From assembly GCA_024663395.1 (NCBI GenBank), contig JANFAH010000013.1, forward strand, positions 1,178,001 to 1,242,000: a DNA stretch of 64,000 nucleotides, read 5' to 3'. Made by a program: the position numbers and the translations under genes. How positions within the stretch are numbered: the first letter of the stretch is position 1; the number at the start of each line of letters is the position of its first letter. Under the pieces are notes generated by a model that saw nothing but the letters and a program-made list of their open reading frames with translations, was not told the origin of the DNA and searched no databases. The DNA is from Pisolithus tinctorius. Lineage: Eukaryota > Basidiomycota > Agaricomycetes > Boletales > Pisolithaceae. This document shows, one piece after another, positions 12,913-49,299 of this stretch.

Positions 12913-12914
12913 TC

Positions 12915-12931
12915 TGGAGCCCACCGCGAGG
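12915..12931 (+). promoter_or_regulatory. TE1 primer-binding-site-like sequence
   Basis: TGGAGCCCACCGCGAGG lies two bases after the LTR. It begins with TGG, as expected for a site pairing with a tRNA CCA end, and recurs next to the 5' LTRs of TE2 and TE3. The primer tRNA was not identified. Confidence 0.7.
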
Positions 12932-13091
12932 GGGGTTCTGTTCGTTTTGGGGAAAGAAGCCACCACCTTATCACCACACGAAAATTTTTGCTGGATTCAG
13001 TTTGGACAAGCTAAGTGTTCAGGGTCTCGGTTCTAGTTACACTCTACACTCACAAATTCCGGAATTTTCAGAATTATTTTTCGAGCAGCAA

Positions 13092-14765
13092 ATGAAGAAC
13101 GAACGACGACTAAGTCGAAGATCCCTCGAGCCGAGAAGCAAGTCCGAAGGCAAATTAATAGTCAAATTTCTGCGAAGAAGTCGTGAGAATGCGCCGAGAG
13201 AACTCGAGGGAATGCCACCGAGGCATTCAAGGGATGCCCCATGGTTCTCAGGGTGTGCGTCTGACCTTTTTAGGTATTTCGAAGAGGTTCGAAGTCTTTG
13301 CGAGCGCGAGAATTGCTTCGATGACCAAGAATGGGCGAAATGGGCTTGCTGGTATGCAAGTGGCGAAATCTCAGACTCATGGTATGAGTTCGTTGAAGAT
13401 CACCTGAGTTGGCCCGAATTCGTGGTGGCCATCGCGCGTTTGTATCCTGGGTCCCGGAAAATGGATCGACAGTATTCGAGGAATGACCTTTACAGCCTCG
13501 TTGACAGCCGAGCAAGAAGAGAAGTTCGTACAGAGGAAGAACTGATGAACTACAGACTCTATTTTCTAGATTTAGCAGCGTTTCTACGGGTTTCGAGGCA
13601 ACTCGAGGCTGACGAGCTCGAAGACCTCTATGTACAAGGCTTCGACAAGGAATTCCGGCGCGAAATTATTCGGAAAATGCGACGCGACGATCGACGGCGA
13701 CACTCGGACGATCCATGGCCCATGGAACAAGTAACATACACAGCAACACGGCTACTACGCAAAGGATTTCGCTCGGAGCAAGCACGGACAAGCGCAGAAG
13801 ACTACTATGAGCCACGAAGTGACCCAGAGTCGAGTTCGGACAAGCAACATCTATCTACGAAGTGTTTTCTTCCTACAGCTGCACATGACTCGCTGACGAA
13901 CAATGTACAGGGATCTACAGAGTTATCGAGGTACATAGAGTGCGAGAAAGTACCGAAGTTAGTTTCGACAAGTCGCGCGCAGCCACACGGCCCACCCAAG
14001 AAGCCAAGTAGTGAGGACCGAAGCCCTGGCAGGCTCGTCGAAGCAGCCGCAGCAACCTGTTTTGAGATGGAAGAGTTTTCTCTGAGTACGAACCAAATAC
14101 TGACTACTGAGTTACAGGAAGCAGTAGAACTGGAGCGAGTTGAACCAACATTGGTGGAGGAACCACTCACAATGAAAGTCCCATTCGAATTCGAAGCGAA
14201 TTACAACACTCAAAGGGGTTTTTCTTTTTGTTCATATCGAGTTTCTCTGATGGCTACTGGTGTGTCACTACAGGAGTCCTACCTAAGAGGTCGAGGCAGT
14301 GAAAGGAGTGGCCTCGGAGTTCCTGCAGTCAGCAGAAATACGCATCAGTTAACTGACGACCTATTCAGGTCAAAGATTCCACTCGAATTCGAAGCCGAAA
14401 GGCTCGAAGAACACCCGAAGCCCACAGGAGTTGAAGTCGAAGGGCTCGAAACACTCGCAGACAGTCCCGAAACAGATAGGTTGGCATACGAAGAGGTCAT
14501 TGACTCACACAGAGCGCCGCAGCACATGAATCACATTGGTGTGCGAAGAGGTTGTTGCAAGAAGAATTCAGATCGAGGAGCCATCGAGGCTCAGTATACG
14601 AAGGAAGCCGCCGGAAGAAGTTTTGCGAGTCGAAATGTTGAAGCACGCGGCGAGGGTGGACGACCTCGCACTCGAGATATTCCGTGGCCGTGCAGCATCA
14701 GCAATATATATTTTTCGAGGATTCGTCGAGCGAATCGACGTGCGCAGAAAGTCCTGCGATGTTGA
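13092..14765 (+). CDS. gag: TE1 gag-like protein
   Basis: First ATG after the primer site is at 13092, giving about 557 residues. Residues about 105-250 resemble the gag regions of TE2 and TE3: a core with LYPGSRKMDRQYSRNDLYSL and, further on, LEDLYVQGFDKEFRREIIRK, matching the YPG..DR.Y..DL pattern of both relatives. No CCHC zinc knuckle is visible. The second half is acidic and low in complexity, and a switch to another plus frame (14536-14769, EEVVARRIQIEEPSRLSIRR) looks equally coding, so an intron or a frameshift is possible near 14200-14550. The stop codon (TGA, 14763-14765) overlaps the ATG of the next frame. Confidence 0.7.
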   Translation: MKNERRLSRRSLEPRSKSEGKLIVKFLRRSRENAPRELEGMPPRHSRDAPWFSGCASDLFRYFEEVRSLCERENCFDDQEWAKWACWYASGEISDSWYEFVEDHLSWPEFVVAIARLYPGSRKMDRQYSRNDLYSLVDSRARREVRTEEELMNYRLYFLDLAAFLRVSRQLEADELEDLYVQGFDKEFRREIIRKMRRDDRRRHSDDPWPMEQVTYTATRLLRKGFRSEQARTSAEDYYEPRSDPESSSDKQHLSTKCFLPTAAHDSLTNNVQGSTELSRYIECEKVPKLVSTSRAQPHGPPKKPSSEDRSPGRLVEAAAATCFEMEEFSLSTNQILTTELQEAVELERVEPTLVEEPLTMKVPFEFEANYNTQRGFSFCSYRVSLMATGVSLQESYLRGRGSERSGLGVPAVSRNTHQLTDDLFRSKIPLEFEAERLEEHPKPTGVEVEGLETLADSPETDRLAYEEVIDSHRAPQHMNHIGVRRGCCKKNSDRGAIEAQYTKEAAGRSFASRNVEARGEGGRPRTRDIPWPCSISNIYFSRIRRANRRAQKVLRC

Positions 14766-16702
14766 CTAAGCGGAGTCACGTGACCGCTCTGCGTGTCGTG
14801 GCCACGTGCACACAAGTAGTACTACACACTGACGACGCTAGTGTTATAGGCCAGCTACGCAAGATCGCAGCGATCGAAGGTTACGAAGAATGGGGCGAGA
14901 AAGGTACCGTATGGAAACTACCACGACTACGAGCGACAGCGACGGTGACAAGAGCGACGACATCAACACGAGCGCGAGCGGGGACGACGACAGCGCTGGA
15001 CTCGGAGCGACAGCCATGCGAGGCTGGAACAGCCATCTTGTGGAGACAAGGCGCGATGAGCGCTGGTACCGGGCTCGACAGCTCGAAGGTTCATTTCGAT
15101 TTCGAAACGCCTTACTTACATCGTCAGTATTCTAGGGAAGCCGGCTATCTACAACGAACAGCGAAGATCGCGATACAAGGAACGAAGACGACGGTTAGAC
15201 TTGGCGCGGATCAACAGCCGCGCGGGAGTGGAAGTGCCATTCGATGGGAATGGGGCGCGAGGAGCGCAGACATGGAGCTCGACGGCTCATCGGTTTGTTT
15301 AGAATTCGAAACGTTTTACTTACATCTACGCTATTCTAGGGATTACAAGAGTACGCAACGAAAAGCGACTGACATCCGAGGAACTGCAGTACTAAGAACG
15401 ATGACAATGACGACACTCGGCACAGATCGAAGATTGCGCGAGGCTAAAACAGCTGTTCGATGGGGACAAGGCGCTATGAGCGCGGGTACTGGGCCTGACG
15501 GCCCAAGGTTTCGTTTACATTCCATAGCGTATTACTTACAAATACTTTATTCTAGGGAAAACGGCTATACACAACGACGTATGAGCGACATCCAGACGAT
15601 CGGAATGCAAGGAACAACAACAACTAGACTTACCGCAGATCAAAGCCCCTACGAGACCAGAGGAGCCGTCCGATGGAAGCAGGGTGCAACGAGCACAGAT
15701 ATTGAGCATTACGGCCCAGAGTTTTGTTTCGATTTCATAGCAGTCTACTTACAGCTATCCTACTCTAGAGAAAACGGATGTACGCAACGAGGAGCGCGAG
15801 CAACGACAACAAGAGTGACAGCGACGTCAACAACGTTCAACACCGACCGAAGGCCATACGAAGCAAGAACGGCCACCCGGTGGACTTGGAGCGTGGCAGA
15901 GGCCGATGCTGAGCTCGAGAGCTCAAGGTTTTATTTTGATTTCGTAGCATTGTACTTACAACTATTCTACTCTAGGAAGAGCGAGAGGCACCTACAACGA
16001 AGTGGAATCGCGGCGCGAGGATCTACACAGGACCATGAACAGAAGACACTCGGACGTACAGGGAAACGAGTGCGACGACTACGGTTCGAGCTGCAACAGC
16101 AATCGTCGAAGATACGACATCCAACGAGCGTGGATATGGAGCCTAACAACCAAAACAATAACTTAGGCGGAAGAACGCATCGACTCACAGTCCAACAAGT
16201 ACGGAGACCCCGAAATAATGCGAGAGACACACTCGAAGCGACCGAACGGACTTCTATGCAAGATCTGCTACGAAGGGCGGCAATGACAGGGGTACGAGAG
16301 ACGACGTCGATGGTGCTGGATGCGGAGCGGTGGTCATACAATGCGAGAGTGGCCATATGGTGGATAAGAGGCATGGCAGAGACGAACAATGAGCTTGACG
16401 GCTCAAGGTTTTGTGTTCGTTTCAGTATATTCTGTTTACTTCTTCGTTATTCTAGGAAGGCCGGCTATCTACGACGAACAGCGTCCAAGACACAAGAAAC
16501 GACGGCGATCACGAGACTTGACACAGACCGAAGGCTGCGCGAGGTTGGAGCAGCCGTTCGGTGGAGACAGGGTGTGGGGAGCGCAGGCGTTCTGACGGCT
16601 CGAGGGTTCGGTTCGGTTTCGGGACGCTCTGCTTACGTCTACTTTACGCTAGGGATAAGGGATGGTCGCGACGAAGAGCGACCAAGGTCCTGGCAAACGT
16701 GA
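14759..16702 (+). CDS. TE1 internal repeat protein, about 70-residue repeats
   Basis: ATG at 14759 overlaps the gag stop (ATGTTGA). The frame stays open for about 647 residues and consists of at least six degenerate units of about 70 residues, each with a TDRR..EA.TA.RW.QGA head and a YLQL.YSRENGYTQR tail. Ends of successive units at 15135, 15339, 15555, 15768, 15975 and 16455 are spaced 204, 216, 213, 207 and 480 bases, all multiples of three, which argues that this frame was kept while the array grew. A different unit type (SSKIRHP..THR..QVRR.R) is inserted at 16060-16300 and recurs at 16760-16930. The last unit ends near 16652 and the frame then shifts. No known family. Confidence 0.5.
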   Translation: MLTKRSHVTALRVVATCTQVVLHTDDASVIGQLRKIAAIEGYEEWGEKGTVWKLPRLRATATVTRATTSTRARAGTTTALDSERQPCEAGTAILWRQGAMSAGTGLDSSKVHFDFETPYLHRQYSREAGYLQRTAKIAIQGTKTTVRLGADQQPRGSGSAIRWEWGARSADMELDGSSVCLEFETFYLHLRYSRDYKSTQRKATDIRGTAVLRTMTMTTLGTDRRLREAKTAVRWGQGAMSAGTGPDGPRFRLHSIAYYLQILYSRENGYTQRRMSDIQTIGMQGTTTTRLTADQSPYETRGAVRWKQGATSTDIEHYGPEFCFDFIAVYLQLSYSRENGCTQRGARATTTRVTATSTTFNTDRRPYEARTATRWTWSVAEADAELESSRFYFDFVALYLQLFYSRKSERHLQRSGIAARGSTQDHEQKTLGRTGKRVRRLRFELQQQSSKIRHPTSVDMEPNNQNNNLGGRTHRLTVQQVRRPRNNARDTLEATERTSMQDLLRRAAMTGVRETTSMVLDAERWSYNARVAIWWIRGMAETNNELDGSRFCVRFSIFCLLLRYSRKAGYLRRTASKTQETTAITRLDTDRRLREVGAAVRWRQGVGSAGVLTARGFGSVSGRSAYVYFTLGIRDGRDEERPRSWQT

Positions 16703-17080
16703 TTCAAGCATCTAAGAAGATTTGCAAGCAAACGCCGTGCGGATGTACGGTGGGACCAGAACGATGGCTACGATGTGATCTACGACGGCGATCATCGGAG
16801 ATACGACATCCAATGAACGACGAGCCAGAAGAAGGAACGCATCGACACACAGGGTGGCAAGTGCAACGACTACGAAGTACCGCGAGAGAAGCACTCGAAG
16901 CGACTCCGCAGACTTGTATACCCGGACTACCACGAATATCAATGCGACAGCAAACTTTGGGATTGCAGCGAGATGCGCAGGAAGCGAGGGGTGTCGAATC
17001 CAGGCCGAGTGGGCTCGAGGGCCCAATGTTCAGTTTTCTCTTCGAAGTGCTTTACTTACAACTTCGTTATTTCAGGAAAT
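14990..17080 (+). repeat. Tandem array of about 205-base units containing intron-like segments
   Basis: Unit ends marked by TTCTAG/TACTCTAG/TTTCAG at 15135, 15339, 15555, 15768, 15975, 16455, 16652 and 17075. Each is preceded by CTTAC(A), about 12-20 bases upstream, and by a GGTT or AGGTT about 47-50 bases upstream, so every unit contains a segment with 5' site, branch-site and 3' site features of a fungal intron. Related but more distant AG ends occur at 17600 and 18027. A second unit type at about 16050-16300 is duplicated at about 16750-16940. Confidence 0.65.
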
Positions 17081-17136
17081 ACCAGGTTTTACTAAATATT
17101 AAGGAATCTTCAAGCGACGATGCGCCTACAGTACGA

Positions 17137-17499
17137 AGCGAATTTTTAGGTCGACGCGCCATCGAGCAGTTAGTGAGGGGAGACACCGTCCCTGTGTTGG
17201 ATATTGTGCAGAGACATCATGGCCATGTTTCGCTTTATTCGGGGGACACCACAGACGAGCGGGACGTGTTGGATATATTGGAGAGATCAGGCATTACATA
17301 TATCATACAGAATGCCTTGCTACAGCGAGGCATGAAAGACCCCTCCGTCTACTTTGGGGGTTACGTCGAAGGCACCCGAGCCGTCATCGAAGCAACCATC
17401 GCAGCCGGTGTCCTGCCCTATCTGGAGAAGCCGTTCGACGCATATAATCTACTGCCTTACCGTTCTACCACGCTGAGCAAACCCAATCTAGAACAATGA
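17137..17499 (+). pseudogene. Captured fragment of a sterol dehydrogenase gene (Erg26-like, 3-beta-HSD/SDR)
   Basis: Within the plus frame 16561-17499, the part from about 17140 reads EFLGRRAIEQLVRGDTVPVL then DIVQRHHGHVSLYSGDT, DVLDILERSGITYIIQNALL, YVEGTRAVIEATIAAGV and LPYLEKPFDAYN. This order is that of the NAD(P)-binding half of C-3 sterol dehydrogenases (Erg26, C4-decarboxylase, ergosterol pathway). The glycine motif at the N-terminus is incomplete. The segment carrying the catalytic YxxxK is missing: the fragment jumps from the IAAGV helix to the LPYLEKP loop. It cannot be an active enzyme. It is fused in frame to the upstream repeat units, so it looks like a transduplicated host sequence. 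Confidence 0.65.
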
Positions 17500-18854
17500 A
17501 GTTGCACACAGTGTATTCGAAGCGATGTGGATTCAGATGCTGAGCCCGAGCGCTCATTTTTGTCTTTTGTTTTTATGACAATCTACTCACGAATCTACAG
17601 GTCTAAGGTACTCGACCAAGTCGAAGCGCAGTCGCTGGTATCCGAAGGAAAAGAAGACGGCACGAGTTCATGGGTAGAGTGCGAAGAGCTATTGACAAAA
17701 CTCAGGAAGGGGAGATTCGAAGCCAAGGTGCCCTTTTCGGTTTTGATTCGAACATTATCTACTGCGAGGTACAGGTACCCTGGTGCGAAGGAAAAAGCGA
17801 TTGATGGGGATGGACGGCTTGAAGCTGTTCATCAGTACTTAGCATCAAGACTTCGTCCGCCCAACTGTGAGGTTGAAGGCCGACGACCAAGATCGAACAA
17901 GGTTAGCACCTACACCCGTCGGAGTCGAAGACCTATCAACGAAGGAGACGCGAGGATCTACAGACTTAAGGTGACAGCTTTTATTATAGTTCAAGCATGT
18001 ACTACTTCGAGATATTTTTGTTTCTAGCAGTGAACAAGTGGTAGACGAAGATGGGCGACTCGAGGTCGCTCGGCGACACTTAGTGTGAGAGCTTCGGCCA
18101 CCTGATGGAGTACCAGACGAAGTACGAGAAATCAAGTGCGCGCATGCACAGGGAGTCGAGGCTGTGAAAATAGGAATGGGACAAGTGAACGAGGCAAGGG
18201 TCCTGGTGAGCGTGTCGATATATAGTTTTCTTTAAAATGAGTTTTGCTTCGAGCGACGTCGTTCAACCGAGTCGTGCTAACCTTCGGGTGATTCTACTCA
18301 CCCCGACTTATAGTTTCGAGTTCCATTGTCTTTCTTGGTGCTAAATCGTCTTAAGGACGAGCAGTAGTCGAGAGCACATATGCATATAAGGATAGTAAAT
18401 ACACGACTGATCAAGATTTGTTTTAGGTACATATATATGTCTTCGAGCTGCCTCGTAGAGGGCCAGCGTCCGCTGTACCAGCCGCTGAGCTGCGTTACAC
18501 TCTGTTACTGTTTCGCACAGAGACTGTGCCTCGAGGAGCAGCCACCGTCTCGCTCTGCACTCGTTGGTGCGAGGTTTTGGTGTTGAGAGGAGTGTTCGAG
18601 AGCAGCCAGAGTGTGTTAGAGAAGATAAGAGCGAAGAGGGGTCGGCGGAACCGAGCACGTGTTTGAGGCCAAGGAGGTAGGCCGGTGAGGGTCGAGGATG
18701 TGGATAGGGGGATTGGGCTGCGAGGCCGGATGGCGTGAGGCTAGAGGGGCAAGGTGCTGTGTTCGAGAGTCAAGGGAAGTAGGTGTGAGGGTGAGGATGT
18801 TCGTGTGAGGAGGAGAGCGACCAAGGACGGTCGAATTCTAAACCACCCCTCGGA
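17500..18854 (+). other. TE1 3' internal region with a second small duplication
   Basis: The frame 17527-18027 includes VSEGKEDGTSSWVECEELLT and GDGRLEAVHQYLASRLRPPN. A related piece DEDGRLEVARRHLV.ELRPP follows at about 18034-18100, interrupted by TGA, so the DGRLE..LRPP module (about 260 bases apart) is tandemly duplicated. Intron-like AG ends are at 17600 and 18027. From 18140 to 18854 no coding frame is convincing, but TCGAG/TTCGAG words stay frequent. Confidence 0.4.
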
Positions 18855-19315
18855 TGTAGGGAACGAGTTCGAGTTCCCTAGGAGAATCCGTCTTGGTCAG
18901 GAGTTTAGGGGTGGAAGGACTTGTTTTGTTTCTTGCCTTTGTTTTTGTGTTTGTACCCCTGGACTTGGTGACGAGCAGCCGCGTTGCTGACTAAGCACGT
19001 GTGCTGTGTTCGCGCGAGTTCAGTTTACCATAACAACCAGTACATGTCACAGGCCCTCAGTAGTAGGGTGATTTGGTCTCGCATTTCGGCGAGAGTTCGA
19101 AGTTAGATTTATTACTTTGGGGAGTACCCAAAGTGCCAGGAGGACTGGCAAGAGTATTAGACAGGCACAGCTAAGTGTCTTTTTTCTAGTTCGCATTTTT
19201 TACTTTTTTACTACACTTCTTTCTCCAGAGAGAACCTCCCTTTTGGGTCGAGCACTAAACTCGCCCATTACTGACTATTACCATTATAGGTACATCTATT
19301 TTACCTATTCCTACA
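18855..19315 (+). repeat. TE1 3' LTR
   Basis: 461 bases, starting TGTAGGGAACGAGTTCGAGT and ending ATTCCTACA, followed by GCGC, the copy of the 5' flanking tetranucleotide. Confidence 0.92.
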
Positions 19316-23700: not shown

Positions 23701-25361
23701 CTAGGCTCTATGGATTGCATTCAACCTCAAATGGAGATCCCACGTGATAATGGACTTGAGGAAGCACTAGCAGTGTTGGAGACCACGACAGGCACGAAAG
23801 CGCTATGTCGACTTTGTAAGGCTTCTCTGGTCGCGCTTTGTGTTGCGAGGCTTGGCAAGAGTGAGAGTGCCTGCGAAACAAGTGATCGTCCGTCTTACGA
23901 TGGACTTTCTAAGTTCGAATTGGCTGGGATGTTGGACGATTGGGTATGTCTGTGGCGCCTCATCCTCACGAACTGAGCACTCACAGTATTTTGTCGTTGG
24001 ACGGTCTCAGCAAAAAAAGACAGGCATTGTGGACAAGGACGGTCATTTGGTGGAGACACACGCACCGAAGGCAAGCAAGCACCAGCAACAAAGGAAAGCT
24101 AAGAAGACGAGAGTACTTGGCCGCACCACCCTGGCCTCCATTTGGGAGGATATGGATGGCTTATCTCTCCCTTCCTGGGTCGCCCCTGTGTCACGAGGAG
24201 TCGGGAGTGCTCGGAATGGAAAACTGTCTGCTGATCAATATCGAACTCTGTTTACGATTAACCTTCCATTCACCCTCGGTCACCTCTGGGGGACGAAAGA
24301 TCCGCATTCCGTCGAGTACAAGATGTTTGCCAACTTCATGGACTTAGTCTCAGCAACCAGGTTAGTTATGATGCGTACCATGACGCCTGACCGCATATCC
24401 AAGTATCAATCCTATATGAAGCGGTACTTGCAGACGCTACTGGATCTCTATCCAGGTCTTTGCCTCTCGCCTACCCACCACATCTGTCTTCATCTTGCAG
24501 AACTCCTTGAGGATTTCGGCCCAGTTCATGCTTGGAGGTGCTTTCCATTTGAAAGGTATAATGGGATGCTTCAGAAGATCCCAACTAATGGAAAACATGG
24601 TAAGCACGCAGTACAGTTTTACTGGAGTATAAGGCTAAAACCACATGATAGGCGAAATGGAGCAGACTATGCTGCGCCGTTTCTGCATGGGTCAACATCT
24701 GCGGGCTTTGTTATCTTCCAAGTCCATGCCTCACAAGGCAACGAGTCTGCTTCTCGACTTCGATCATATCTTTCAGACCAATATGCGGGGAACTTTATTC
24801 AATGATATGTTGTCGTTTGACGGATCGTTGGATGAAGTGGAGCAGGGTGCAAATTGCAGCAAGTTGGATCTCAAACTGTTGGATCAGGATGACTGCCGCC
24901 TCCTCAACGAATGGCTCTTAAGACACGCAAGCGACTACGATGCGATCAAAGGTGTTAGGCCCTATGCCTATCCTCGCCAGTCTATTAGTTGGCGTGGAGA
25001 GTCGTTTTCAGTGGAATCCAAGTCTCCCCCCAACAGCCGTGTCATCTTCCGGGTCGATGGTGGGCTCGCAGCCGGAATAATTCGGCGTATTTTCTACCAT
25101 GCAAGAACGACAACTAGTGGGCAGAAGGCAGCGCAGATGTTCTTTATTGTGGCTCGATATGCTGAATTATCAGAAGAGTTCGTACTTGCCAACGTATATG
25201 CGGCCTTCCCAGATGCAGGAATATATTGCATCTCCACGAGCACTCTTCCTGACGCATTGCTGATAACTAGCACGGATATAGTGTGCCACTTTGCCTCTGC
25301 AAAAATACCCATAAATGAAGGGGGGGGGGTATATTGTATGTACAATCCCTGGATAAGGTAG
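20704..25361 (+). pseudogene. Tnp2-type transposase 1 (CACTA/En-Spm-like, Transposase_21 family)
   Basis: Multi-exon gene. The N-terminal part, from the ATG at 20704, has a zinc-binding-like CLCWQCYDHTTVHPVTGHLV. The main exon (about 20901-23014) carries the family core: DGFNPF (about 22170), IIPGPYEPSLHQINHLLRPL, a CxxC around 22525, and DSMH (about 22735). Introns at 23015-23071, 23540-23619, 23944-23986 and 24600-24651 keep the frame. The later exons include FPFERYNGMLQKIPTNGKHG and end at 25361. DGFNP, DSMH and FER are plausible members of the DDE catalytic triad, by analogy with the second copy. One CGA to TGA nonsense change (23522-23524) interrupts an otherwise continuous frame; a weak alternative splice just before it could avoid the stop. 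A run of G at about 25320-25329 may also shift the frame. Confidence 0.8.
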
Positions 25362-29725: not shown

Positions 29726-30695
29726 TGTGGGACACGACTTCTGGGAAGCGTGCGACTAGAGGAAGGGTGAAGGGAGAATTCCCTAGGGTCGTCCCAAGGG
29801 GTACTGTGTGGAAGGAGAGGTCGAGAAAGGGCTTAGAAGCGGTGGGGAAATTCGAGCGAGAGTCGCGGAATTTAATTCCGGGCAGATGTAGATGCGTGAG
29901 GAGCAGCAAGATGGGTATATGAAATTCCGAGGGGGTCGCTACGCGTCAAGAGGAGCGAATTCGAAGCGAAAGGGACACGGATTAGTGTGCAGGGCTGGAG
30001 GACGCAAGAGACACGAAGACCTCTGGGGACACTGAAGACGCAGCAGACTCTATGTACGCACTTTAGACTCTCGAAACTCTCGAACTCGCAGAACACACAC
30101 GGATAGCGACTCAAAAGGTGGGTGTCATATTTCCGACGCTATGGCGGAATTATATAGTACAGGGAAAGTAGGTACGAGTCGGAGTAAGGTGGGGCGGAAA
30201 AACTAAAAGACCGGAAAATAAAGGGAAGGACGTCAGACGTCAGCGAAATACAGATGCACGTGAAATAGTCCGTGGGTAGTAGACAAGAGTAAGAACGGGA
30301 CAACGGTAAGGGGTATCTTCCAACAGAACGAGAGTATGCGTACAAGTGGGAGGTGGAGCTGAGTGGCACAGGAGGGCAGAGCGTAGCGTACTGGCACGAA
30401 GTCCAGCTTGCGGAATTTAGGGCGACAGGGGAAACCGGGTTTTTTAGAGGTAAGTGCACGGATGACTGGTGACATGGCTGAGCATGGCTACTGAACTCCG
30501 ATGACTCTGCGCGAATGCGGCATAGCGACATGCTGAAGGTCGGTAGAGACTCCGAAGGGGACAGGGGATGGGAGGAAACGCGAGGACACGAGCGGAAAAA
30601 AATTCCGAAAAACTCCGAAACGGTTTGTCGTAGAGGCCTGCGGAATTTAGTGACAGATTCCTGTTCCAGCCTCAGGGAGTATACGGCTCCCTACA
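29726..30695 (-). repeat. TE2 LTR, left copy (3' LTR of the element)
   Basis: 970 bases. On the plus strand it begins TGTGGGACACGACTTCTGGG and ends GGCTCCCTACA. It holds eight CGGAATT/AATTCCG sites if the pair CGGAATTTAATTCCG at 29865 is counted as two. It differs from the right copy by a handful of transitions and 1-base indels. Confidence 0.93.
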
Positions 30696-30960
30696 CCTCC
30701 CGGGGACTGCGAATGCTGACCGTCCTCAGTCAGACCGAACCGAGACGACAGAGACGAGCACGGAGGAATTTCGGCAGACGTTACGTAACAATGATGGCGC
30801 GTGGTCGGAATTCCGCCTCGTGCAGAGGGAAATTCCGCATTGTACGAGATGGCCCTGCGGAATTTAAACTCGCCCAGAAGGTGGCCCACCGCTCGTCAAA
30901 CTCCCCCAACAACACCCTCGCCCACTTATCTTGCTCCCAACGTCTCATCCACCCGTCGAC

Positions 30961-32560
30961 ATGCAAGCTTACTCGATCCGCGACGCACGGCCGGTGATTA
31001 GCATGAGGGACCAGGCCATTATCTCGCTGTCAGCAGCTCTGAGGCACGTTAGGGTGTTGATCGACACGGCGCCGCAACCCGAGGAGAGCCTAGAGGCGAT
31101 ATACGAGTGGGTGGCGGACTGGGACCAGACCTGGGTGAGTGCACTAGATACTCGTACACGCCACCGCTAACAGATCTCCAGGCCGGCATTTACTCGTGGT
31201 GGAAGTACGTCGACGAGAACGAGATCTCCATCCCGAAGGTGCGCGACGCCAACCTACGCGACATGACCGAAGAATCCGCGATGGAGCAGAACGAGGTGAT
31301 CCCGGCGGTCATAGCCATAGCAGATCTTCGTCGGCCAGAAGGGCAGCGAAGATTCCACATCGACGACGTCTTCGAGGACTACCAGGAGCGGGTCGAGGAG
31401 AGAGCGCGCTTAGAGGCTGAGAGGTTGGCCAAGGCACCATCCATGCACACCCGCCAAGCAGCAAGAGGTGAGGGCCAAGACCACGCACCAGAAGATACCG
31501 AAGGAAACCCGTCAAGAGGAGCTGCACGTTCGACAGGGGGGGGCTCTGGAAGCGCGAGCAAAGGAAAAGGGAAACAGAAGGTGCGTTCCACGTCCTTGAC
31601 AACCCCGAGCGTGAGTGCTGACTTCAACGAAAACTCCGCAGGCCACCAGCGAGGAGGACGAGCTGGCTGATGACGTCGACGATGACGAGGGCGACGGCGA
31701 AGGCGAAGGCGAACCAGGTCCTTCTGCAAAGAGACCTCGTGGCTGGAGACAACGAGCCCTGCGAGACGTGTGCGCAGGCGAACCTCAGGTGCGTCGGGGA
31801 GCCAGAGTCATCCTGTAAACGGTGCCAGAAGGCGAAGCGCAAGTGCTCGCGCTCTCGAGGGGTAGGGAGAAAGGTGAGTACCGAACAGGTGAAATTCCGC
31901 AAGGGAACGGGCTGACACCACCTTCAGCGAAAGAACTCCGGTACCGTTGGGGAAGCAGGCCCGTCCCACAAACGGGTCAAATCGATTACGACCGCGAAGG
32001 CGTCCCCGGCCGAACCTGCGACTGGACCTGCCAAGAAGCTCACTCTGAAAATTCCGGCTCGAAAACGGCAGCCTGATCCGACTCCCACACGTTCTCCTTC
32101 GCCACAACCGACCCCTTCACCCCACGATCCTCCGCCAACACCTCGTCTCTTTTTCCGCGGGGCTACTCCAACGCCCGGACCTTCATTCAAGCCCTCTCCA
32201 GTCCCTGTCGACGATCCTCAAGCGTCACCTTCGATCGACGAACCGCAAGTCGAGCGAGCCTTTTTTGCGACTGCGACCAGTTTACTGGACGAACCTGGAG
32301 ATCGAAGTGACGGCCCAGAGCGACACTCCTTCTGCTGCGGAAATTCCGGAGGTCGAGTACCCACGCGAGCGGTCGACAGCGAACATCGTCGAGCGTCTGC
32401 GAGTGCTCGAGGCGAGGGCCAGGACGAGGAGTTCGAGTTGGAGCAGGTCTACCGGCTGCTGGGGATGCTGGCGAGGCGGGTGACATATCGCATCGAGACT
32501 GCGCGGGCTAGACGGGAGGAGTTGCGAAGGTTGAAGGACGATCTCCGCACCTGTAAATAG
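30961..32560 (+). pseudogene. TE2 antisense gene: Zn2Cys6 zinc-cluster protein with C-terminal coiled coil
   Basis: Runs opposite to gag-pol. Four exons: 30961-31134, 31182-31580, about 31642-31873 and 31928-32560, with GT..AG introns of 47-61 bases. Exon 1 begins MQAYSIRDARPVISMRDQAI. Exon 2 has YSWWKYVDENEISIPKVRDA and ends Lys/Gly-rich. Exon 3 is acidic, then carries CETCAQANLRC and CKRCQKAKRKC: C-x2-C-x6-C-x7-C-x2-C-x6-C, the Zn2Cys6 pattern. Exon 4 is open for 210 residues, Pro-rich, and ends in a charged helix (ELEQVYRLLGMLARR..REELRRLKDDL) suited to coiled-coil dimerisation. A single-base indel near 31735 separates the acidic part from the zinc cluster, so this copy is broken. The gene layout matches the antisense gene of TE3. 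Proposed role: sequence-specific DNA binding, possibly to CGGAATT. Confidence 0.75.
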
Positions 32561-32680
32561 CGTACTAGTGTCTGCGGAATTTTGTACTCGTATGTCCCGA
32601 ATGTGAAAGAGTCTTTCGTGCGTTGGAATTAGTACTACAGTAAGGAAACGTAAGACTTCTGAAGGAAAAGTAGTGCGGAA

Positions 32681-32703
32681 TTTTTTTTTTTTTTTTTTTT
32701 TTT
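32681..32703 (-). other. TE2 23-base A tract downstream of pol (T run on plus strand)
   Basis: A pure run of 23 T on the plus strand, that is A23 on the pol strand, about 120 bases after the pol stop and about 120 bases from the 3' end of the antisense gene. It looks like the remnant of a poly(A) tail. It is preceded on the pol strand by a long pyrimidine-rich stretch (plus-strand purine tract 32765-32818). Confidence 0.6.
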
Positions 32704-32821
32704 AGCGACTTTGTCTCTTTCATGTGAGCGGTGCGGAATTTATATATGAGATGAAACGGGTATCGATAAAAGAAAGAAGAGAGAAAGAAAAGAAAAGAAA
32801 AGAGGTAGAGAGAAGGACGGG

Positions 32822-34631
32822 CTACTCATCTGACTCGTCCAACGGGACGCCAGCGAGCGTAGGGTCCGGGAACGCTTCGTCTTCAAGACGATCCAGGTCT
32901 TGTGGGGAAGCACCAGTCAGCTGGGTGACTTCAATACGAGCGTTATTCCGCGGGAAATAGGGGTATAGGCGAAAGGCAGCGAAACGGAATTTCGAGACTG
33001 CGCCATCTAATTCCGCAAGTATGTACGAACCGCCTTTAGTGCGTCTGATGACGATCATAGGCCCTAGGTAGCGCGGTTTGGTTTTCCGGTCGAGTTCTAG
33101 TTCGATACGGGAATTCCGAACGAGGACAAGCGACCCTGGTTCGAAGTTTAAAGTCTTTGATGGACCGTGCAAAACGAATCGACGAAATCCTTGGCTGAGG
33201 CAAAGCGGGATTTTAGGACCATATTGTGGATGCGAGCGAGGTCCTCGGGGCGTGTTCTGGAGTTGGCGAGCACAGTGAGCAATGAGGTCTGTAGTCGAGT
33301 AAAATTCTGCCTCGAAAGGGGCTAAAAACGTCGCTTCGACCAGATCGAAAGGGAGTCTGGGTTCAACACTGTGAGCCATATAGAATGGAGAGAACCCGGT
33401 TGCCTTGTGAACCGTAACCCTCTCTGCCCAAAAATACCGCAGGAGCCACTTCTGACCACTTCGACGCTTCCCCACCACAACTCTTTACCATCGCCTCTCT
33501 GACATCGAAATGCCGCCGTTCGACGACTCCATTAGCCTGCGAATTATAAGGGGAGATGCGTATGTGGCGAATTCCGACGGTCTTGGAGAGCCAGTCGAGA
33601 GCGAGGACGTATGGTCCCCCATTATCTGTGACAATCTCCGCAACGGCACCCCAACGGCACAGAATCTGTTCGAAGATGAACTTTCAATGGACTTGCCTGT
33701 CTCTGCACGAAGCATAGCCCATTCGGGGTAACTGGTGAGTGAACAGCGGGCTTGGGTAACGTTAGCGAAAACCCGTTCGACTTCGGCATTAAGAACGTGT
33801 CCATATAAGCCTTGTAAAACAGGGGTTCGGGGATGGCGACAACTGGCGGTATATGGAATGCGATCCAAACGACGGATCTGGCACTCGTGGCACGATTTAA
33901 CCATACCAACGGACGTCCTGCTCTAGCATGGGCCACCAAAAGCGAGTCAGCAACGCATACGGGTCGAGAAGATACCCTTGTGCCCTAGGTTGTCGTGGGC
34001 CTGGCGGAGAATTCCAAGGTGTTTGTGTGAGGGTACCACTAGCTGATGCCGTCCCTGGGGATCCTTCCTCCACAGTTCTCCCCCTTTTACGAAATACCGA
34101 GTCGCAAGGCGCACTAGGCTCTCCAACTCCGCCTCCTCTAACCCTTCGGGCGTTTTCTTCGTTTCCAAAAACTCCTTTCACCACTCTCATCCTCTCCTCT
34201 TTCTGTTTCGCTTTTTCTGACCTCGGAATTTCAGTCTCGAGGTTTTCCGGCATCGATTCTTCGGCGGTAAAGATACCTAGACTCTGTGACAGGGGGAGGG
34301 ATGAGTCTGACACGACGCTCGGAATTTCCAAGGGGTAAGGATGGGACTCGAAACGCGCTTCCCTACGATTCAAGAGCTCGACTGCAAAAGCCCCACACTC
34401 ATCAATCCAATCCTCATAGTCCTCGTCTCCCTCCTCATCTTCTTCTGCTCTCGGTCTCCTCGAAAGTCCGTCCAGCGCTGCGTGCTTGTGTGCTGGAACA
34501 TGTATGAGCTCGAAGTCGAATAGGAGAATTCCGGCGATCCAGCGATTTATGGTCGCGTTAGGCTGTAGGTCGGGATTGTTAATCATCCCTTTGATGTACC
34601 GCGCATCCACCTCAACGACTAAATTCCGCAC
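32822..34631 (-). pseudogene. pol: TE2 pol 3' part: RNase H tail and integrase, broken
   Basis: Continuation of pol after the stop at 34647. Frame 34631-33897 begins with VEVDARYIKGMINNPDLQPN, as in TE3. The integrase zinc region is split between frames: HDNLGHKGIFSTR at about 33990-34030, and FWWPMLEQDVRWYG followed by CHECQIR at about 33880-33945. The core (ALTSYPEWAMLRAE-like; frame 33904-33485) and C-terminal part (33478-32822, EPGSLVLVRNSRIELELDRK, YLGPMIVIRRTKGGSYILAE, a GPY/F-like module) lie in further frames. At least three frameshifts or stops compared with TE3 pol. Not functional. Confidence 0.85.
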
Positions 34632-34646
34632 GCCGAAGATATGAAG

Positions 34647-36447
34647 TCAGACGTCGTGCAAGGCTCGGAAAAGCCCAAATAATTCTAGCTTAGCTTGGCT
34701 GTAGCGACGTTCGCGTTCATTGAGAGTTATCGAGCCGAACCTAGCAGGGTAGCGTTTGCCGTCTTCCCCCTCCTGCATGAGGAGATACCCGACAGCGATG
34801 TTAGAAGTGTCGACAGCTAAAATGACTTTGTTTTCGGAATTATAGTCGATAGTTCGTAACGCAGGGGACGAGACGATCGCATGGCGGAGGTACTCCATCG
34901 CTTCCCTATGCTCGTCACGGAATTCGAAGGGGACGTCCTTCTTGGTCAGCTCGACGAGGGGACGGGCATGTTTGGCGAAGTCTTTGATGAAGATCCTGCA
35001 GTACGAACAGAGACCTAAAAATCTGCGTACTTCAGTGACATTTGTGCAGTACGGCCAATCTTTAATCTTTTGGACTTTAGATTCGTCCGGAATTCTACCC
35101 TCAAACGACACCTTGTGCCCGACCACTATGATAGACGGCGCAGCAATGACGCATTTCTTTGCTGACACGGTGGCTCCTGCATGACGCAGACGGTGTAGGA
35201 CTCGGTTGACGTTCTGCAGGTGCTCCCAGATGAAGCGTCTAATCCCGGAATTCTGTGGAATCGTTTCGGAGGTCCCGTCGGGATTTTGGTAGCGAGATTT
35301 GGGACCTTTAATGGGACAGTCGTCGATAAACGGGATGGTGACTTCCAGAATTTCGTCTTTTAAAATCCAACAGACGTCTCCGTGGAAAATTTGGACGGCA
35401 TTCGTGTAGCCCATAGGAAGTTTGGTGAGTCGAAGAGTACCTATAGGAGTTTGGAAGGTAGTGAGGTCACGGTAATCGTCGTGTATGGTGCGATGATCAT
35501 ATCCGACCATAAGATCTAAAATTCCGTAGACCGAATGACAAGCGAAGGCTTCAGCAATCGAATCGACGAATGGGGGAACGGCTGAGTCCTGGATAGAAAC
35601 GGTGTTTAGAGGTTGTAAGTCATGTACGAGGCACAGAGATTTTCCGTCCTTCTTGACTACGCAGAACCATTTTGAGCGGTAAGACGAAGTAGACGGTTCA
35701 TAAACCCCTGCGGAAATCTTTTCCTTGATGATATTAACGACTTCACGGAAAATAGCCGGAGGAATGGGAATATTCCGCTCGACCCAAGGCTTGTGTGCTA
35801 GCGTAGGTATCTTCAGGGGCGGGAACATGTCTTCTCGAAAGGTCCCTCTTTCCGAAGCGTCCCAAGCAAAGGCATCTTCTTGCTCCCTGACTAACCACCG
35901 TACTAGGTCTAACTCCGTAGGCCAAAGGAACCTTGCCGGGTCCAAATCGAGCTCGTCAGCTCTTTCCTGAGTAAACCTGAAACCTGGCATGAACGGAGGG
36001 GGATGAGTAGGTAAGACAGGCAGATCTGCGAGTGGGTCTTCGGCCTCCCGACGCTCTACCCGGAATTCTGCTGGCATTGACGTCGGTACCCGGCCTCACC
36101 TTCCTCGCTACAGGTTTGTACTTTAAGACATGATAAACGGGATCGAACTGATAAGTAGAGCGTAAGGCAGAAATTGTCAGTGGAGAAATGGTAGTAGCGG
36201 TCGAGAACAGGAAAGGATCAGTCGGAGAAACGGAACTGGTGTCAAAGGGATCGACAGGAGGCGTAATGTTGCCTCGCAAGTCGTAGATAAACACCGCAGC
36301 GGAATTTACGGCAGAGTCTGTGGGTAAAAACGTGGAAGACTTCAAAGGGTATAAAGATGGATCAGAAACATAAAGTGAACACACGGAGAAAGCGCAGTCC
36401 TGGTCTCCTCGTAGATCGTACGAGTCCTCGACCGATACTAAAAACCC
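34647..36447 (-). pseudogene. pol: TE2 pol 5' part: reverse transcriptase and RNase H, broken
   Basis: Enters by -1 shift at GGGTTTT (36447-36441). The first segment runs to about 36075 (VYHVLKYKPVARKVRPG), then a one-base frameshift leads to 36077-34647. RT landmarks: YEPSTSSYRSKWFCVVKKDG, LVHDLQPLN, FIDDC (the YxDD-box position, with Phe-Ile-Asp-Asp), GHKVSFEGRIPDESKVQKIK, then an RNase H-like segment VILAVDTSNIAVGYLL. It stops at TGA (34647-34649), where TE3 pol and the downstream frame indicate CGA. Domain order is that of Gypsy elements. Confidence 0.9.
36438..36447 (-). promoter_or_regulatory. TE2 -1 ribosomal frameshift site GGGTTTT plus stop
   Basis: On the element strand the gag-pro frame reads CAG GGT TTT TAG. 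The heptamer G GGT TTT (36447-36441) is a canonical X XXY YYZ slippery site, and the pol frame is exactly -1. The same heptamer directly before the stop occurs in TE3. Confidence 0.8.
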
Positions 36448-36449
36448 TG

Positions 36450-38708
36450 CTTGGGTGGATTCATGTGGCGACGCATTTGTTTTCGCGCAAAGAAGTCTTC
36501 TTCGTCTTCGGAATTTACGAAACGTGGAAGGGGTTGCAGCCTGTTGCGAGGTCGTGTCGGAATTAAGACTTGTTTACCGGAATTAGGGTCGCGGATTTCT
36601 AGAGACTGTTCTCCGTCAGGGAAATCGCGAAGGACGCTGGAGAGTAGGCAGAAGAAGGGTCAACCGAGAAGTAAGTCGAAAGGCGTGCGATCAACGACCT
36701 GGATTTGTAGATGAGCCTCGACGTTTCCTATGCGCAAAGTGGCATTCTCTATGACCCCAAGGGTGCTTTCTTTAGATTGGTTAGCGGCCTCCAGAGTCAT
36801 GGTCATGTCAGTACGGAGAGGGGCCTCTAAGGCTTCCCACAACTCCCGTCGCAAGGCCACTACCTGGCATCCGCTGTCCAAAATACATTCGACATGGAGT
36901 TTGTCCATCAAGATTCCGTCGACAGCACATAAGGGAGCCGTAGCGAGGCCCACGCACTTCCCTTCTGTGTCTCTAACCCAGTACTGCTCATAGGACGCCC
37001 AAGCAGCTGAGGGAGTTGCGTCTGATGCGGTTTCTAAACTCCCAATAGTTATCTTCTTCGTCGCAGCTAGTTCTCTGATCTGCTTGCGAATCTCTGGGCT
37101 AACAGCTAATAGATCTTTAGTAGAGATTTCCATTTTTGCGTCTAAGACTTGGTTTACGATCCGCTTGGTCGCCGCAGCTTCATCAAAACTGCTTTGGTAA
37201 CGGAATTGGGGTGCGGAATTTGTAGTTGGCTTAAGTTTCCGGAGGTCTGTAAGATTAGGAGCAACCGGAGTTTTTCTGGCTATTGGGGCTTCCGAAGACG
37301 AGGCGGGGTTAGCTGGAGCGGAATTACTGACTGGGATAGGAGGCACCGGCGCGTTGGCCGACGCTGGGACTGCTAGTGCCGGCCTTTGACGACGAACCGG
37401 GACTTCTACGCCATCGAAGCGGGCTGTCTTCTTTTTCTTGATAGCGTTCTTCAACTCTTCTACCTGCGCATAAGCCCTTGCTAAGGCACGTTGGTCTTCT
37501 TCGTCAGCATCCTCCTCTAGGTTTTCGTCGACTAGATAGGAAGAGGGGTGTAGGTCGACTTGGTATTCCGAAACATCTTCGTTGCTGAAGAACATTGTGC
37601 TGACGAGATGGGGAGGAGTTTCACACCCGCGGGATGAGGTTGACTGCTGGCCGGGTTGCTGAACTGAGACGAGGTTTGCCGAGGCAATGATCGAGTCGCG
37701 CATGGCGAGGAAGTTATCGATCTTTTCCTTGAAGTTACGGCCTGCAGCTGTCCTAGGAATATCAGAGCCGTCTGGCATGAAAACCCTCCCTCCAATCAGG
37801 GAGCATTTCCCAGCTTGTACGTATTCGTGACACAGTGCACATTCTGCAGTTCTGTGCCCATCTGTTCCTCCACAGAAGAAACATCGTGGATCGAAGGAAC
37901 GACGGAATTGTCCTTCTTGACCTTGTTTGGGGGGCGGGGTAGGAACGGGTTGCTGAGCGACATGAGCATACTCTCGCTTCAGGATAGTAGGAACGGCCGG
38001 CGAGGACGATGGAGCGGAATTCTGGGGAAACAGTGCCGACGAGTCTGGTTGAGGGAGGTTCCGTTTGGCCCCACTGAGGAGGTAGTTGGCGTGTTTATAG
38101 GCCATATCGAACTCCCATGGTTCGTCAATGTCATGATCTAAGTCAGAGAGTTGCAATCGCGTGAGCAAGGAATTCCGAAATCTCGGGGGAAACCCCTCAA
38201 GGAATTTCTCGTTGATGTAGTCCTCAGGGAGTTTCTTCTTCTTCTGGATGAGGCCGAGGATGCGTCGGAATTCCCGGACGTATTTCCCGAGATCTTCCAG
38301 TGATCCCATCAGTTTCTGAACTTGATGGTAGAGTAAGGTTTCAAGGTCGGCTTTAGTATAGCGACGATCTTTCACCGAGGCACCTGGATAGTAGTTCAGG
38401 AGTTCTTTGGAAAACGCATCCCAGTCATTGAAGCCGTCGGTTGCGGCGTCTAAGGTTGACCAAAACTCCGCCTCGTTGTGGTTAGCGTAACGAATGACCC
38501 AGTGGATCTTATCTTTCCCGGTGTCAAGGCCAGCTTCGACGCAGAGTTGTTCGACGTCTTCAAGGTAGCGAGTGATGTCTTCGGTACGACCGGAAAACTT
38601 CGGGGCTTTGTTAGAACCCCTGAGTGGCATATCTCTTGCTCCAGACATTATGCGAGGTGGTACGGGGATCTGGATCGGAATTCGGGGAAGGATAGGAGCG
38701 GAATTCAA
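36450..38708 (-). pseudogene. gag: TE2 gag-protease
   Basis: ATG at 38708 (MNSAPILPR); another, MSGARDMPLRGSN, is at about 38648. Gag core with KAPKFSGRTEDITRYLEDVE and ELLNYYPGASVKDRRYTKAD, then a zinc knuckle CFFCGGTDGHRTAEC at about residue 275, a Pro/Ala-rich linker with repeated NSAP, and a retropepsin motif CILDSGCQVVALRRELWEAL. The frame is cut at TGA (36660-36662) after FDLLLG, where TE3 has FDMLLGRLF, so CGA to TGA is likely. It then continues in frame to the slippery site at 36447. The recurring NSAP and EFR words in the protein are translations of embedded AATTCCG motifs. Confidence 0.88.
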
Positions 38709-39168
38709 GAGAGTCGAGGCAAGAGAATTCTGTACGGGTATTTGAGTAGAAAGGGAGGTAACGGAATTTGCGATTAGGGAATGGGAAGGAAGTAGGAGCT
38801 GTTCAGCAGCTAGTTCTGAGTCACTGGATGGCGAGGACGACGAAGAAGTTAGTTCTGAGAGAGGCGAAAGTTCTTGACGTTCAGCGGGGGGATCGAAGGG
38901 CTCGTCGAAGTCGAAGCCTCCTGGAAACGCTGGGCAAAACGCTGGGGACTCTGGGCTGCGAAAGATCTCGTCTAAACCGAGATCTGAGTCTGACGAGTGC
39001 GGCTCTGAAATATCTCTAGGATCAGCTACCGGAATTAAGATTTCTGCTGAGGAAATAGATAGTCTGCGGAAGGGCTCCAGGAGCTCTTCGAGTTTGGTTC
39101 TTTGACGAGTGGGTCGTAAGGATCTCCTTTCCAGACCTACAGACCCCTCGCGGTGGGCTCCAAAACGT
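38709..39168 (-). other. TE2 5' leader between LTR and gag
   Basis: About 460 bases holding the primer site and a stretch open in the gag frame upstream of the first ATG (NSVTSLSTQIPVQNSLAS-like reading), so a non-ATG or upstream start cannot be excluded. Two CGGAATT sites, at about 38763 and 39031. Confidence 0.4.
39144..39162 (-). promoter_or_regulatory. TE2 primer-binding-site-like sequence
   Basis: On the element strand TGGAGCCCACCGCGAGGGG, six bases after the LTR. Same core as in TE1 and TE3. Confidence 0.7.
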
Positions 39169-40146
39169 TGTGGGACACGACTTCTGGGAAGCGTGCGACT
39201 AGAGGAAGGGTGAAGGGAGAATTCCCTAGGGTCGTCCCAAGGGGTACTGTGTGGAAGGAGAGGTCGAGAAAGGGCTTAGAAGCGGTGGGGAAATTCGAGC
39301 GAGAGTCGCGGAATTTAATTCCGGGCAGATGTAGATGCGTGAGGAGCAGCAAGATGGGTATATGAAATTCCGAGGGGGTCGCTACGCGTCAAGAGGAGCG
39401 AATTCGAAGCGAAAGGGACACGGGATTAGGTGTGCAGGGCTGGAGGACGCAAGAGACACGAAGACCTCTGGGGACACTGAAGACGCAGCAGACTCTATGT
39501 ACGCACTTTAGACTCTCGAAACTCTCGAACTCGCAGAACACACACGGATAGCGACTCAAAAGGTGGGTGTCATATTTCCGACGCTATGGCGGAATTATAT
39601 AGTACAGGGAAAGTAGGTACGAGTTGGAGTAAGGTGGGGCGGAAAAACTAAAAGACCGGAAAATAAAGGGAAGGACGTCAGACGTCAGCGAAATACGGAT
39701 GCACGTGAAATAGTCCGGTGGGTAGTAGACAAGAGTAAGAACGGGACAACGGTAAGGGGTATCTTCCAACAGAACGAGAGTATGCGTACAAGTGGGAGGT
39801 GGAGCTGAGTGGCACAGGAGGGCAGAGCGTAGCGTACTGGCACGAAGTCCAGCTTGCGGAATTTAGGGCGACAGGGGAAACCGGGGTTTTTTAGAGGTAA
39901 GTGGCACGGATGACTGGTGACGTGGCTGAGCGATGGCTACTGAACTCCAGATGACTCTGCGTGAATGCGGCATAGCGACACGCTGAAGGTCGGTAGAGAC
40001 TCCGAAGGGGACAGGGGATGGGAGGAAACGCGAGGACACGAGCGGAAAAAAATTCTGAAAAACTCCGAAACGGGTTTGTTGTAGAGGCCTGCGGAATTTA
40101 GTGACAGATTCCTGTTCCAGCCTCAGGGAGTATACGGCTCCCTACA
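39169..40146 (-). repeat. TE2 LTR, right copy (5' LTR of the element)
   Basis: 978 bases, TG..CA ended, followed by GCGG. One CGGAATT site present in the left copy (30601) is altered here to AATTCTG (about 40050). Confidence 0.93.
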
Positions 40147-48198: not shown

Positions 48199-48563
48199 TG
48201 CTGAGCTATTGAGCCCTTACTTCCCACTCCTGCTGTAATTGTAACGAATGGGATTTTTTCTATACGACCTTAGTTCTAGGCAGATTCGGAGAAAACATGT
48301 GTTGTATTGCTGTATTGAATTGTGACGAGTTAGACATCCAGACTCGGAACACGCCGAGGTGATCTGTGTGTCCTCTGGGCATCCATTCATGTTCCCAAGG
48401 CGCAGGACGCAGGATTGCGCTAGGTGGAAGAAGTAATGGCATCATGTTTGATGACTTCCTAGTACGCGCTAGAGCAACAGAGATGTATACTGTCCCCCCA
48501 GCAATGTACTCTCGCCTCCACCCCACCCTTCCCATGGCCTGCAGACATCTCGACCATGCCCGG
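48199..48563. other. Intergenic; weak minus-strand frame
   Basis: A minus frame at 48260-48535 has no motif. The region abuts the 5' LTR of TE3. Confidence 0.35.
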
Positions 48564-49217
48564 TGTGAGGAATCCGCATTCCCTGGACGCGTAAGCCCCT
48601 ATCATTAACCGTTCCGTGGCTACTGTTACGTCCGCTCCCATCTCACGTTCACCATTGTTCATGCGCTACCTTCCCACACCCTCGCTCCCTCTCGCGTGGA
48701 GCTATACCTGCGGCTGCTGTGCTCCGGTCGTAGTTTTTCCTCGGACTCTTTTCTTGTCACGGTCTCTGTTTCTTTAGTGCTTGTAGTTATACCCTCGGCC
48801 TCTGTTCGGCCAATCTTGTTTGCACGCGCTGTTGCGTGGCTTTCCCTTACTGTACCCTGTCTTACTTAGGTTCCGGGTTTGCCCGGACTATAAAGCCTTG
48901 TACTTAGGTACAGAATGATACCTTTTGGCACTCGGAAGGTCACCACGAGTTTCTTTTCCACTTCATCTACACCGCACATCTCGCATTCCACCGCGCACGA
49001 ACTACGTATACCGCTCGCACCGCTCGCATCACCAGTACTACTCCGCAGACCACGCCACGCACGCCACGAAACACTACCGCTACAAAGCGCTGGGTCTCCC
49101 CTTCTAGTCCCGACAGTCCAGAATCCCTTGGGACAAACAATTCGTTCCCTTCATTTCTTATTGTTGTTATCTAAGCCATCTAGCTCGTGTTATACAGCTA
49201 CTTGGACTTTTCCTACA
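48564..49217 (+). repeat. TE3 5' LTR
   Basis: TGTGAGGAATCCGCATTCCC to TTTTCCTACA. A TATAAA at 48889-48894 is a likely promoter element. The first 360 bases match 57657 onward. Confidence 0.85.
48889..48894 (+). promoter_or_regulatory. TATA box in TE3 5' LTR
   Basis: TATAAA within GGACTATAAAGCC, preceded by the short inverted repeat CCGGG..CCCGG. The truncated 3' LTR lacks this part. Confidence 0.5.
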
Positions 49218-49219
49218 AC

Positions 49220-49236
49220 TGGAGCCCACTGCGAGG
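49220..49236 (+). promoter_or_regulatory. TE3 primer-binding-site-like sequence
   Basis: TGGAGCCCACTGCGAGG, two bases after the LTR. One base different from the TE1 and TE2 sites. Confidence 0.7.
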
Positions 49237-49299
49237 GATTCTGCTGTCACTTCCAGAAGGTCACTCAGGCGCACCACCGAATGCACCGAACTCGAAAAT

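Follow-up and report, generated by a model that had tools for sequence, protein, structure and literature searches.

The window analysed here, a 64-kb stretch of a Pisolithus genome, contains a retrotransposon, TE2, in which a single seven-base word, CGGAATT, recurs from end to end and a gene for a zinc-cluster protein lies antisense to pol. The question raised by this locus is whether the protein reads the word, as the original prediction of a self-targeting system supposed. TE2 (29726-40146, pol on the minus strand) is a complete Ty3/gypsy-type LTR retrotransposon, as judged from the alignment of its LTRs, its ends and its Pfam domains. The two LTRs, one at the 3' end of pol and adjoining the antisense gene (29726-30695, minus strand) and the other at the 5' end of pol (39169-40146, minus strand), are 98.2% identical over 988 alignment columns. 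The ends read TG...CA, and a 4-bp GCGG flanks the element at either end; a scripted search for a flanking 5-bp target duplication found none. The coding frames are split in the list of open reading frames. Gag and aspartyl protease occupy 36660-38648 (minus strand; PF13352 DUF4100 and PF13650), and the reverse transcriptase (RT) and RNase H portion of pol 34647-36077 (minus strand; PF00078, below cut-off, and PF17919). The remainder of pol (32822-34586, minus strand) is split between two open frames (33897-34586 and 32822-33379), neither of which matched a Pfam family at E 0.01. The LTR pair, gag, protease, RT and RNase H assign TE2 to Ty3/gypsy; Pfam recognised no integrase in it and the RT match lay under the cut-off, whereas RNase H and integrase are both recognised in two further gypsy elements, TE3 and TE4.

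Other features of the window were recorded as well. A third LTR element, TE1 (12449-19296), has LTRs that are approximately 96-100% alike; one ORF appears gag-like by eye, with no Pfam match, and internal imperfect repeats spaced about 210 bases apart lie within a long open frame. Three copies of CGGAATT lie near the start of TE1, two of which overlap as AATTCCGGAATT. Two ORFs on opposite strands (23900-24805 and 58803-59741) have phrases such as FER..G.LQ..PTN.K.G in common and resemble members of one transposase family. No Rfam match was obtained in the window at gathering scores.

The window contains 56 copies of CGGAATT, compared with a mean of 7.49 (sd 2.82, maximum 14) in 100 dinucleotide shuffles. 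TE2 contains 52 of these sites, where a second-order Markov model expects 2.0, and only 4 are found in the remaining 53,555 bases, which bears out the earlier claim that the word saturating TE2 contains CGG. The field extends from 29866 to 40098 on both strands, through the LTRs, the antisense gene, pol, gag and the leader, with 35 sites on the plus strand and 17 on the minus strand. The pol and gag stretches hold 27 of the 52 sites, 19 of them within the four open frames. When codons were shuffled synonymously, the word remained in excess in gag (7 vs 1.36 expected) and in the RT frame (6 vs 1.24), with none of 2000 shuffles reaching the observed count in either, and in the two further pol frames (3 vs 0.31, p 0.001; 3 vs 0.79, p 0.01). 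When every 7-mer of the TE2 coding sequence was scanned blind, CGGAATT ranked first (19 vs 3.9, maximum 10 in 300 shuffles), and CGGAGTT is a weaker second form in the element (9 vs 1.5). The 11 rows that Tandem Repeats Finder reported for TE2 are short arrays, and CGGAATT is part of the repeat unit in none of them. Chance, composition and codon usage are thus ruled out as the source of the word by the dinucleotide, Markov and synonymous-codon nulls. The inverted CGG..CCG pairs that had also been proposed do occur, both in the LTR dyad described below and among neighbouring sites less than 40 bases apart, but they are a minority of those close pairs (4 inverted, 1 everted and 4 direct; n=9).

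The antisense gene (30961-32560, plus strand) is located in the interval that separates the end of pol from the neighbouring LTR. Its predicted exons, bounded by splice-like sites, are 30961-31134, 31182-31580, 31642-31873 and 31928-32560. The copy in the window has frame breaks, in agreement with the earlier view of a broken reading frame, and three relatives (L009, L010 and L011) are open through exons 3 and 4. The encoded cluster, CETCAQANLRCVGEPESSCKRCQKAKRKC (31760-31846, plus strand), and that of TE3 are the only two matches to the Gal4-like cysteine spacing in all six frames of the 64-kb window. The spacing in TE2, TE3 and F37, a sister lineage of TE2, is C-X2-C-X6-C-X7-C-X2-C-X6-C, and TE4 has X8 and X9.

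The order of the two halves of the TE2 cluster is unusual: half 1 resembles the second half of a canonical cluster and half 2 the canonical basic first half. Against solved structures, the cluster matched LAC9 (1cld) weakly (E 2.7) in a crossed alignment, with the second half of TE2 on the first half of LAC9 and vice versa. The halves of four clusters were exchanged and rescored against PF00172, for which the Pfam gathering score is 21 bits. The score rose in all four cases, namely TE2 (15.2 to 27.7 bits), TE3 (13.2 to 18.9), F37 (17.2 to 27.3) and TE4 (11.4 to 17.9); none passed the cut-off in natural order and two did so when swapped. When the halves of Gal4 itself were exchanged as a control, the score fell from 48.7 to 35.1 bits. 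Judged by sequence, the four clusters score better as Zn2Cys6 clusters whose halves stand in reverse order. The predicted antisense cluster of Gal4 type opposite pol is accordingly present in its six cysteines and their Gal4-like spacing, and departs from the type in that PF00172 prefers its halves swapped. The Zn2Cys6 (Gal4-type) family binds CGG. TE2 shares with Gal4-type factors the six-cysteine spacing, the basic half, a CGG-containing word and predicted C-terminal helices; unlike them, clusters of the TE2 type have swapped halves and fall below the Pfam cut-off in their natural order.

Profile comparison of the TE2- and TE3-type proteins aligned them at the cluster only (probability 91%), and cluster comparisons with TE4 were weak (22% for TE2-TE4, 9% for TE4-TE3). 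AlphaFold models of antisense proteins had low confidence (mean pLDDT 48 and 64); they contain C-terminal helices that, as modelled, would suit dimerisation. In all three types of antisense protein, AGPS is followed, after 0-1 residue, by KR some way past the zinc cluster, as seen in the translations of L040:3480-4799 (minus strand), window 31928-32560 and P0001; this may be a nuclear signal or a trace of common origin. Protein searches with the TE3-, TE4- and TE2-type antisense proteins returned 7, at least 53 and at least 56 proteins, respectively, all labelled Pisolithus, with P. orientalis among the species that have related proteins; for the TE4 and TE2 types, these figures refer to the candidates sharing most words, which were the ones scored.

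A search of the genome (92.5 Mb, 221 contigs) with the TE2 cluster gave at least 109 matches. Twenty of these were taken as stretches of up to 10 kb, two more (L037 and L038) as 4-kb stretches, and 8 of 150 TE3-cluster matches likewise as 4-kb stretches. Because the copies vary greatly in CpG content, CGG was pooled in the counts with TGG and CAG, the forms to which it decays (YRG). Among the 512 YRG-containing words, YRG+AATT leads in 18 of the 20 TE2-like loci and is second in L028; it is also the top word in L037 and in L038, which is decayed. The one locus where it falls outside the top four, L024, aligns to TE2 over just 412 bp and was discarded as an exception to the rule, being a fragment amid other elements. 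The piece of zinc cluster in question (L024:1335-1733), surrounded by unrelated elements, recurs at four places, each at 70% identity, which suggests that it is carried by another repeat. In the eight TE3-type stretches, the word ranks first only in L030 (9 vs 1.0), part of which aligns to the TE2 LTR in reverse, and L030 was not retained as a TE3-type case of the word.

The sister lineage F37, assembled by extending L037 with L041, provides a comparison across a larger distance. Its cluster is approximately 61% identical to that of TE2, and it contains 25 CGGAATT where 1.3 are expected. In the sequence that can be aligned between the two (80% identity), 10 of 19 TE2 sites are kept in F37 (binomial p 0.004), compared with 22.6% of 3,906 other 7-mers, and 3 of the 9 lost sites read CGGAGTT. 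Dense occurrence, excess over synonymous shuffles and retention across lineages together form the pattern expected from selection for binding. The antisense gene itself gave dN 0.348 and dS 1.831 between L010 and F37, and hence a dN/dS of about 0.19, with the two premature stops of the F37 copy skipped, dS near saturation and exon 3 alone giving no dS. On this sequence comparison, the gene is under purifying selection between the lineages. Both CGGAATT and the basic half of the cluster are retained in F37.

A dyad in the TE2 LTR, CGGAATTTAATTCCG (CGG-N9-CCG; 29866-29880, plus strand), has a twin in the other LTR (39309-39323). It is symmetric except at its centre base. The exact dyad occurs at 128 sites genome-wide, and the reversed control pattern at 0; the total remains 128, equal to the T-centred count, when the centre base is left free. 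The centre base of CGGAATT-N-AATTCCG is T or A in all 100 rows (50 sites) listed of the 128 sites, although the dyad is carried by two unrelated families. Among the first 100 sites listed, 28 lie at a TE2-like distance from a zinc-cluster match, 24 form 12 pairs that are 4.7-5.1 kb apart, and 48 are other sites. Of the latter, L044 holds two, both from a deleted copia copy, and L045 holds two more, one in a TE2 LTR and the other in a copia LTR. One 4.8-kb pair, L039, was examined whole and is a Ty1/copia element (copia-type gag, RVT_2) with LTRs that are 97.6% alike. By coordinates, 11 of the 12 pairs among the listed sites contain a copia RT match, and the idea that the 4.8-kb pairs are non-autonomous TE2 copies was dismissed.

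The L039 copia contains 22 CGGAATT against an expectation of 0.91, oriented 14:8, and the excess in its long frames persists under synonymous shuffling (4 vs 0.50, p 0.0005; 8 vs 0.80, 0 of 2000 shuffles). It has no blastn similarity to TE2 or TE3, and the zinc-cluster pattern is absent from its six frames. A copia family with CGGAATT and without the zinc-cluster gene breaks the rule that the word implies the gene. The sharing of both the word and the 15-bp LTR dyad by two elements with no blastn similarity, one of them lacking the gene, would also be anticipated if a host factor reads CGGAATT, the two elements having gained sites for transcription or for escape from silencing while the antisense gene serves otherwise. 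We regard this explanation as unlikely. It accounts poorly for two zinc-cluster gypsy lineages that each carry a CGG word of their own, and for the retention in F37 of the word together with the basic half of the cluster; moreover, CGGAATT is not in excess in three further ORFs of the window, of which one is host-like. The reading in which the protein of TE2 itself recognises the word is preferred here, and the copia would then be a freeloader, served in trans by the TE2 protein.

The second of these gypsy lineages, TE4, is nested at the L033 locus and is undecayed in CpG (0.98). L033 had been a candidate for a TE3-like element with the word CGGAGT, which was withdrawn as the word belongs to the nested TE4. 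According to Pfam, the pol of TE4 comprises RT, RNase H, integrase and a chromodomain, and the opposite strand bears an ORF with the cluster CTRCIASLMAGQCEPGQGKTRACVPCHNKKKTC; in a relative, long helices are predicted on either side of the cluster by AlphaFold at low confidence. A search in which 150 of 343 candidates were scored gave no fewer than 150 matches, and a scan of IMG/VR for TE4-type proteins confirmed none. TE4 contains no CGGAATT in pol. Its own word is GCGGAG (62 vs 10.2; CGGAG 97 vs 34.4), with a contrast that falls to 60 vs 13.5 under strand-specific composition, so that the excess is partly compositional. Synonymous shuffling of pol nevertheless left CGGAG at 57 vs 22.2 (maximum 36 in 2000 shuffles). 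The word is present alike in the leader, the antisense ORF and pol, and GCGGAG is kept in two further copies, L042 and L043, which are approximately 90% alike.

The words have a preferred orientation in TE2 (35:17), in the copia (14:8) and in TE4 (85:12), and they stand mostly antisense to pol. This would fit a role as RNA- or codon-level signals, in packaging, translation or composition, with no DNA-binding protein involved. We consider such a role highly improbable, as the excess persists under synonymous shuffles, the TE4 sites fall in all three codon phases, [GT]CGGAG in TE4 has the orientation seen in pol (46:4) within the antisense ORF too (14:0), and the TE2 dyad is symmetric apart from its centre.

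TE3 (48562-57915, pol on the plus strand) is a related gypsy element, of the same lineage as TE2, with an antisense half-swapped cluster at 56596-56682 (minus strand) in an ORF at 56245-56805 (minus strand). Its coding sequence has an excess of GCGG (98 vs 68.5, maximum 86 in 500 shuffles), a word picked after several had been viewed, and GCGG was not preferentially retained among relatives (131/206 vs 252/370, p 0.27; 4 of 7 aligned loci summed). TE3 is thus an element with the antisense zinc-cluster gene and without a clear private word. The outcome that the original prediction named as counting against it, motif without gene and gene without private motif, is seen in part: the copia has the word without the gene and TE3 the gene without a clear word, but the word follows the gene through the two sister lineages, with TE4 as an analogous case. 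The idea of self-targeting is partly supported, gaining from a word that exceeds chance and codon effects and is kept above other 7-mers.

On the sequence evidence, a reader of CGGAATT is very likely to exist, the best candidate being the protein of TE2 itself. Two gypsy lineages each pair an antisense zinc-cluster protein with a CGG word of their own, which makes the element's protein the likeliest reader. We propose that the antisense gene would supply a DNA-binding protein that acts in trans at CGGAATT; the protein would bind as a coiled-coil dimer, for which the LTR dyad may be the best site, and binding would presumably benefit the element. That the protein binds CGGAATT and so marks its own copies, for escape from silencing or for transcription, we hold to be slightly better than an even prospect.

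The decay of the copies bears on the direction of this effect. The CpG observed/expected ratio of the TE2-like copies (L009-L028) ranges from 1.12 down to 0.05, and their clusters show changes of Arg to Trp, Cys or His, a sign that older copies in the Pisolithus genome have undergone strong CpG mutation. In 14 of the 20 TE2-like loci, 155 of 471 CpGs within CGGAATT were kept against 2,021 of 6,562 others (p 0.35); in other CGG contexts 558 of 2,163 were kept, so that motif CpGs decay slightly less than these (p 0.002), with both p-values generous as the copies are related. Motif CpGs decay about like other CpGs, which indicates no strong local protection, and such protection, as a sign of anti-silencing, is not clearly seen in the 14 loci. 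This would agree with a protein that binds CGGAATT and represses its own element, as a control on copy number; repression draws on the same sequence evidence as the preferred reading, and activation and repression cannot be told apart from sequence. The gain and retention of dozens of sites, also by the copia without the gene, would fit a benefit better, and we assign self-repression a low probability. Of the two directions, protection or activation is favoured by analogy with VANC (PMC5735166).

VANDAL elements are Mutator-like DNA transposons. TE2, by contrast, is a retrotransposon with LTRs, gag, RT and RNase H, and its host is a fungus. In the portions of the VANC literature consulted, the VANC21 motifs of VANDAL21 in Arabidopsis lie chiefly in non-coding tandem repeats, in one orientation, and their binding is shown, and related systems carry different proteins and motifs (PMC5735166, PMC10398659). 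TE2 resembles this system, as far as described there, in pairing a transposon-borne protein with a short motif accumulated in its own family; it differs in that CGGAATT is dispersed over coding and non-coding sequence alike and that binding is predicted from the sequence. Plant elements are known to carry antisense ORFs in the space between pol and the 3' LTR, whose function is reported as unknown, and the antisense protein of Retand is predicted to bind DNA through a TRP28 domain (excerpts of PMC7264820 and PMC11963269). The extra gene of TE2 has the same position and orientation, whereas its protein has a zinc cluster rather than TRP28; Pfam at E 10 on 6 related proteins gave only matches below cut-off, none of them to PF04195 (TRP28). 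Unlike for TE2, no saturating target word is named for Retand-type elements in those excerpts (PMC11963269, PMC7264820). Boty-like elements of Botrytis cinerea with the antisense gene brtn (as cited in the excerpt of PMC7264820) are, by description, likewise fungal LTR retrotransposons with an additional antisense gene. Fungal DNA transposons also carry TET/JBP genes, for which a role against DNA methylation or C-to-T mutation has been suggested; these are, like the TE2 gene, transposon-borne genes in fungi, but they encode an enzyme and reside mostly on DNA transposons, with no retrotransposon carrier reported in the part of the source consulted (PMC12730594). The matches listed in the open-licence literature included no account of an antisense zinc-cluster gene in a fungal retrotransposon, nor of a fungal retrotransposon saturated with a word of its own. 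New here are the half-swapped clusters, TE4 with its own word GCGGAG, and a gene-less copia saturated with CGGAATT.

Taken by analogy, we favour a VANC-like self-recognition system that is exploited by a second element. A wider form of this proposal, held tentatively and at rather less than even confidence, is that at least two fungal gypsy lineages co-evolved a half-swapped zinc-cluster protein and a private word as an anti-silencing self-code, and that an unrelated copia took over CGGAATT and the dyad without the gene. If so, sequence-specific self-recognition by transposons would have arisen independently in fungi and in retrotransposons, and a single genome would harbour several self-recognition codes together with a cheater element, making protein-word co-evolution and freeloading testable within one species. 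The half-swapped cluster would then represent a naturally permuted form of a DNA-binding fold that is already well studied, and TE2 gives the antisense gene between pol and the 3' LTR a concrete candidate target.
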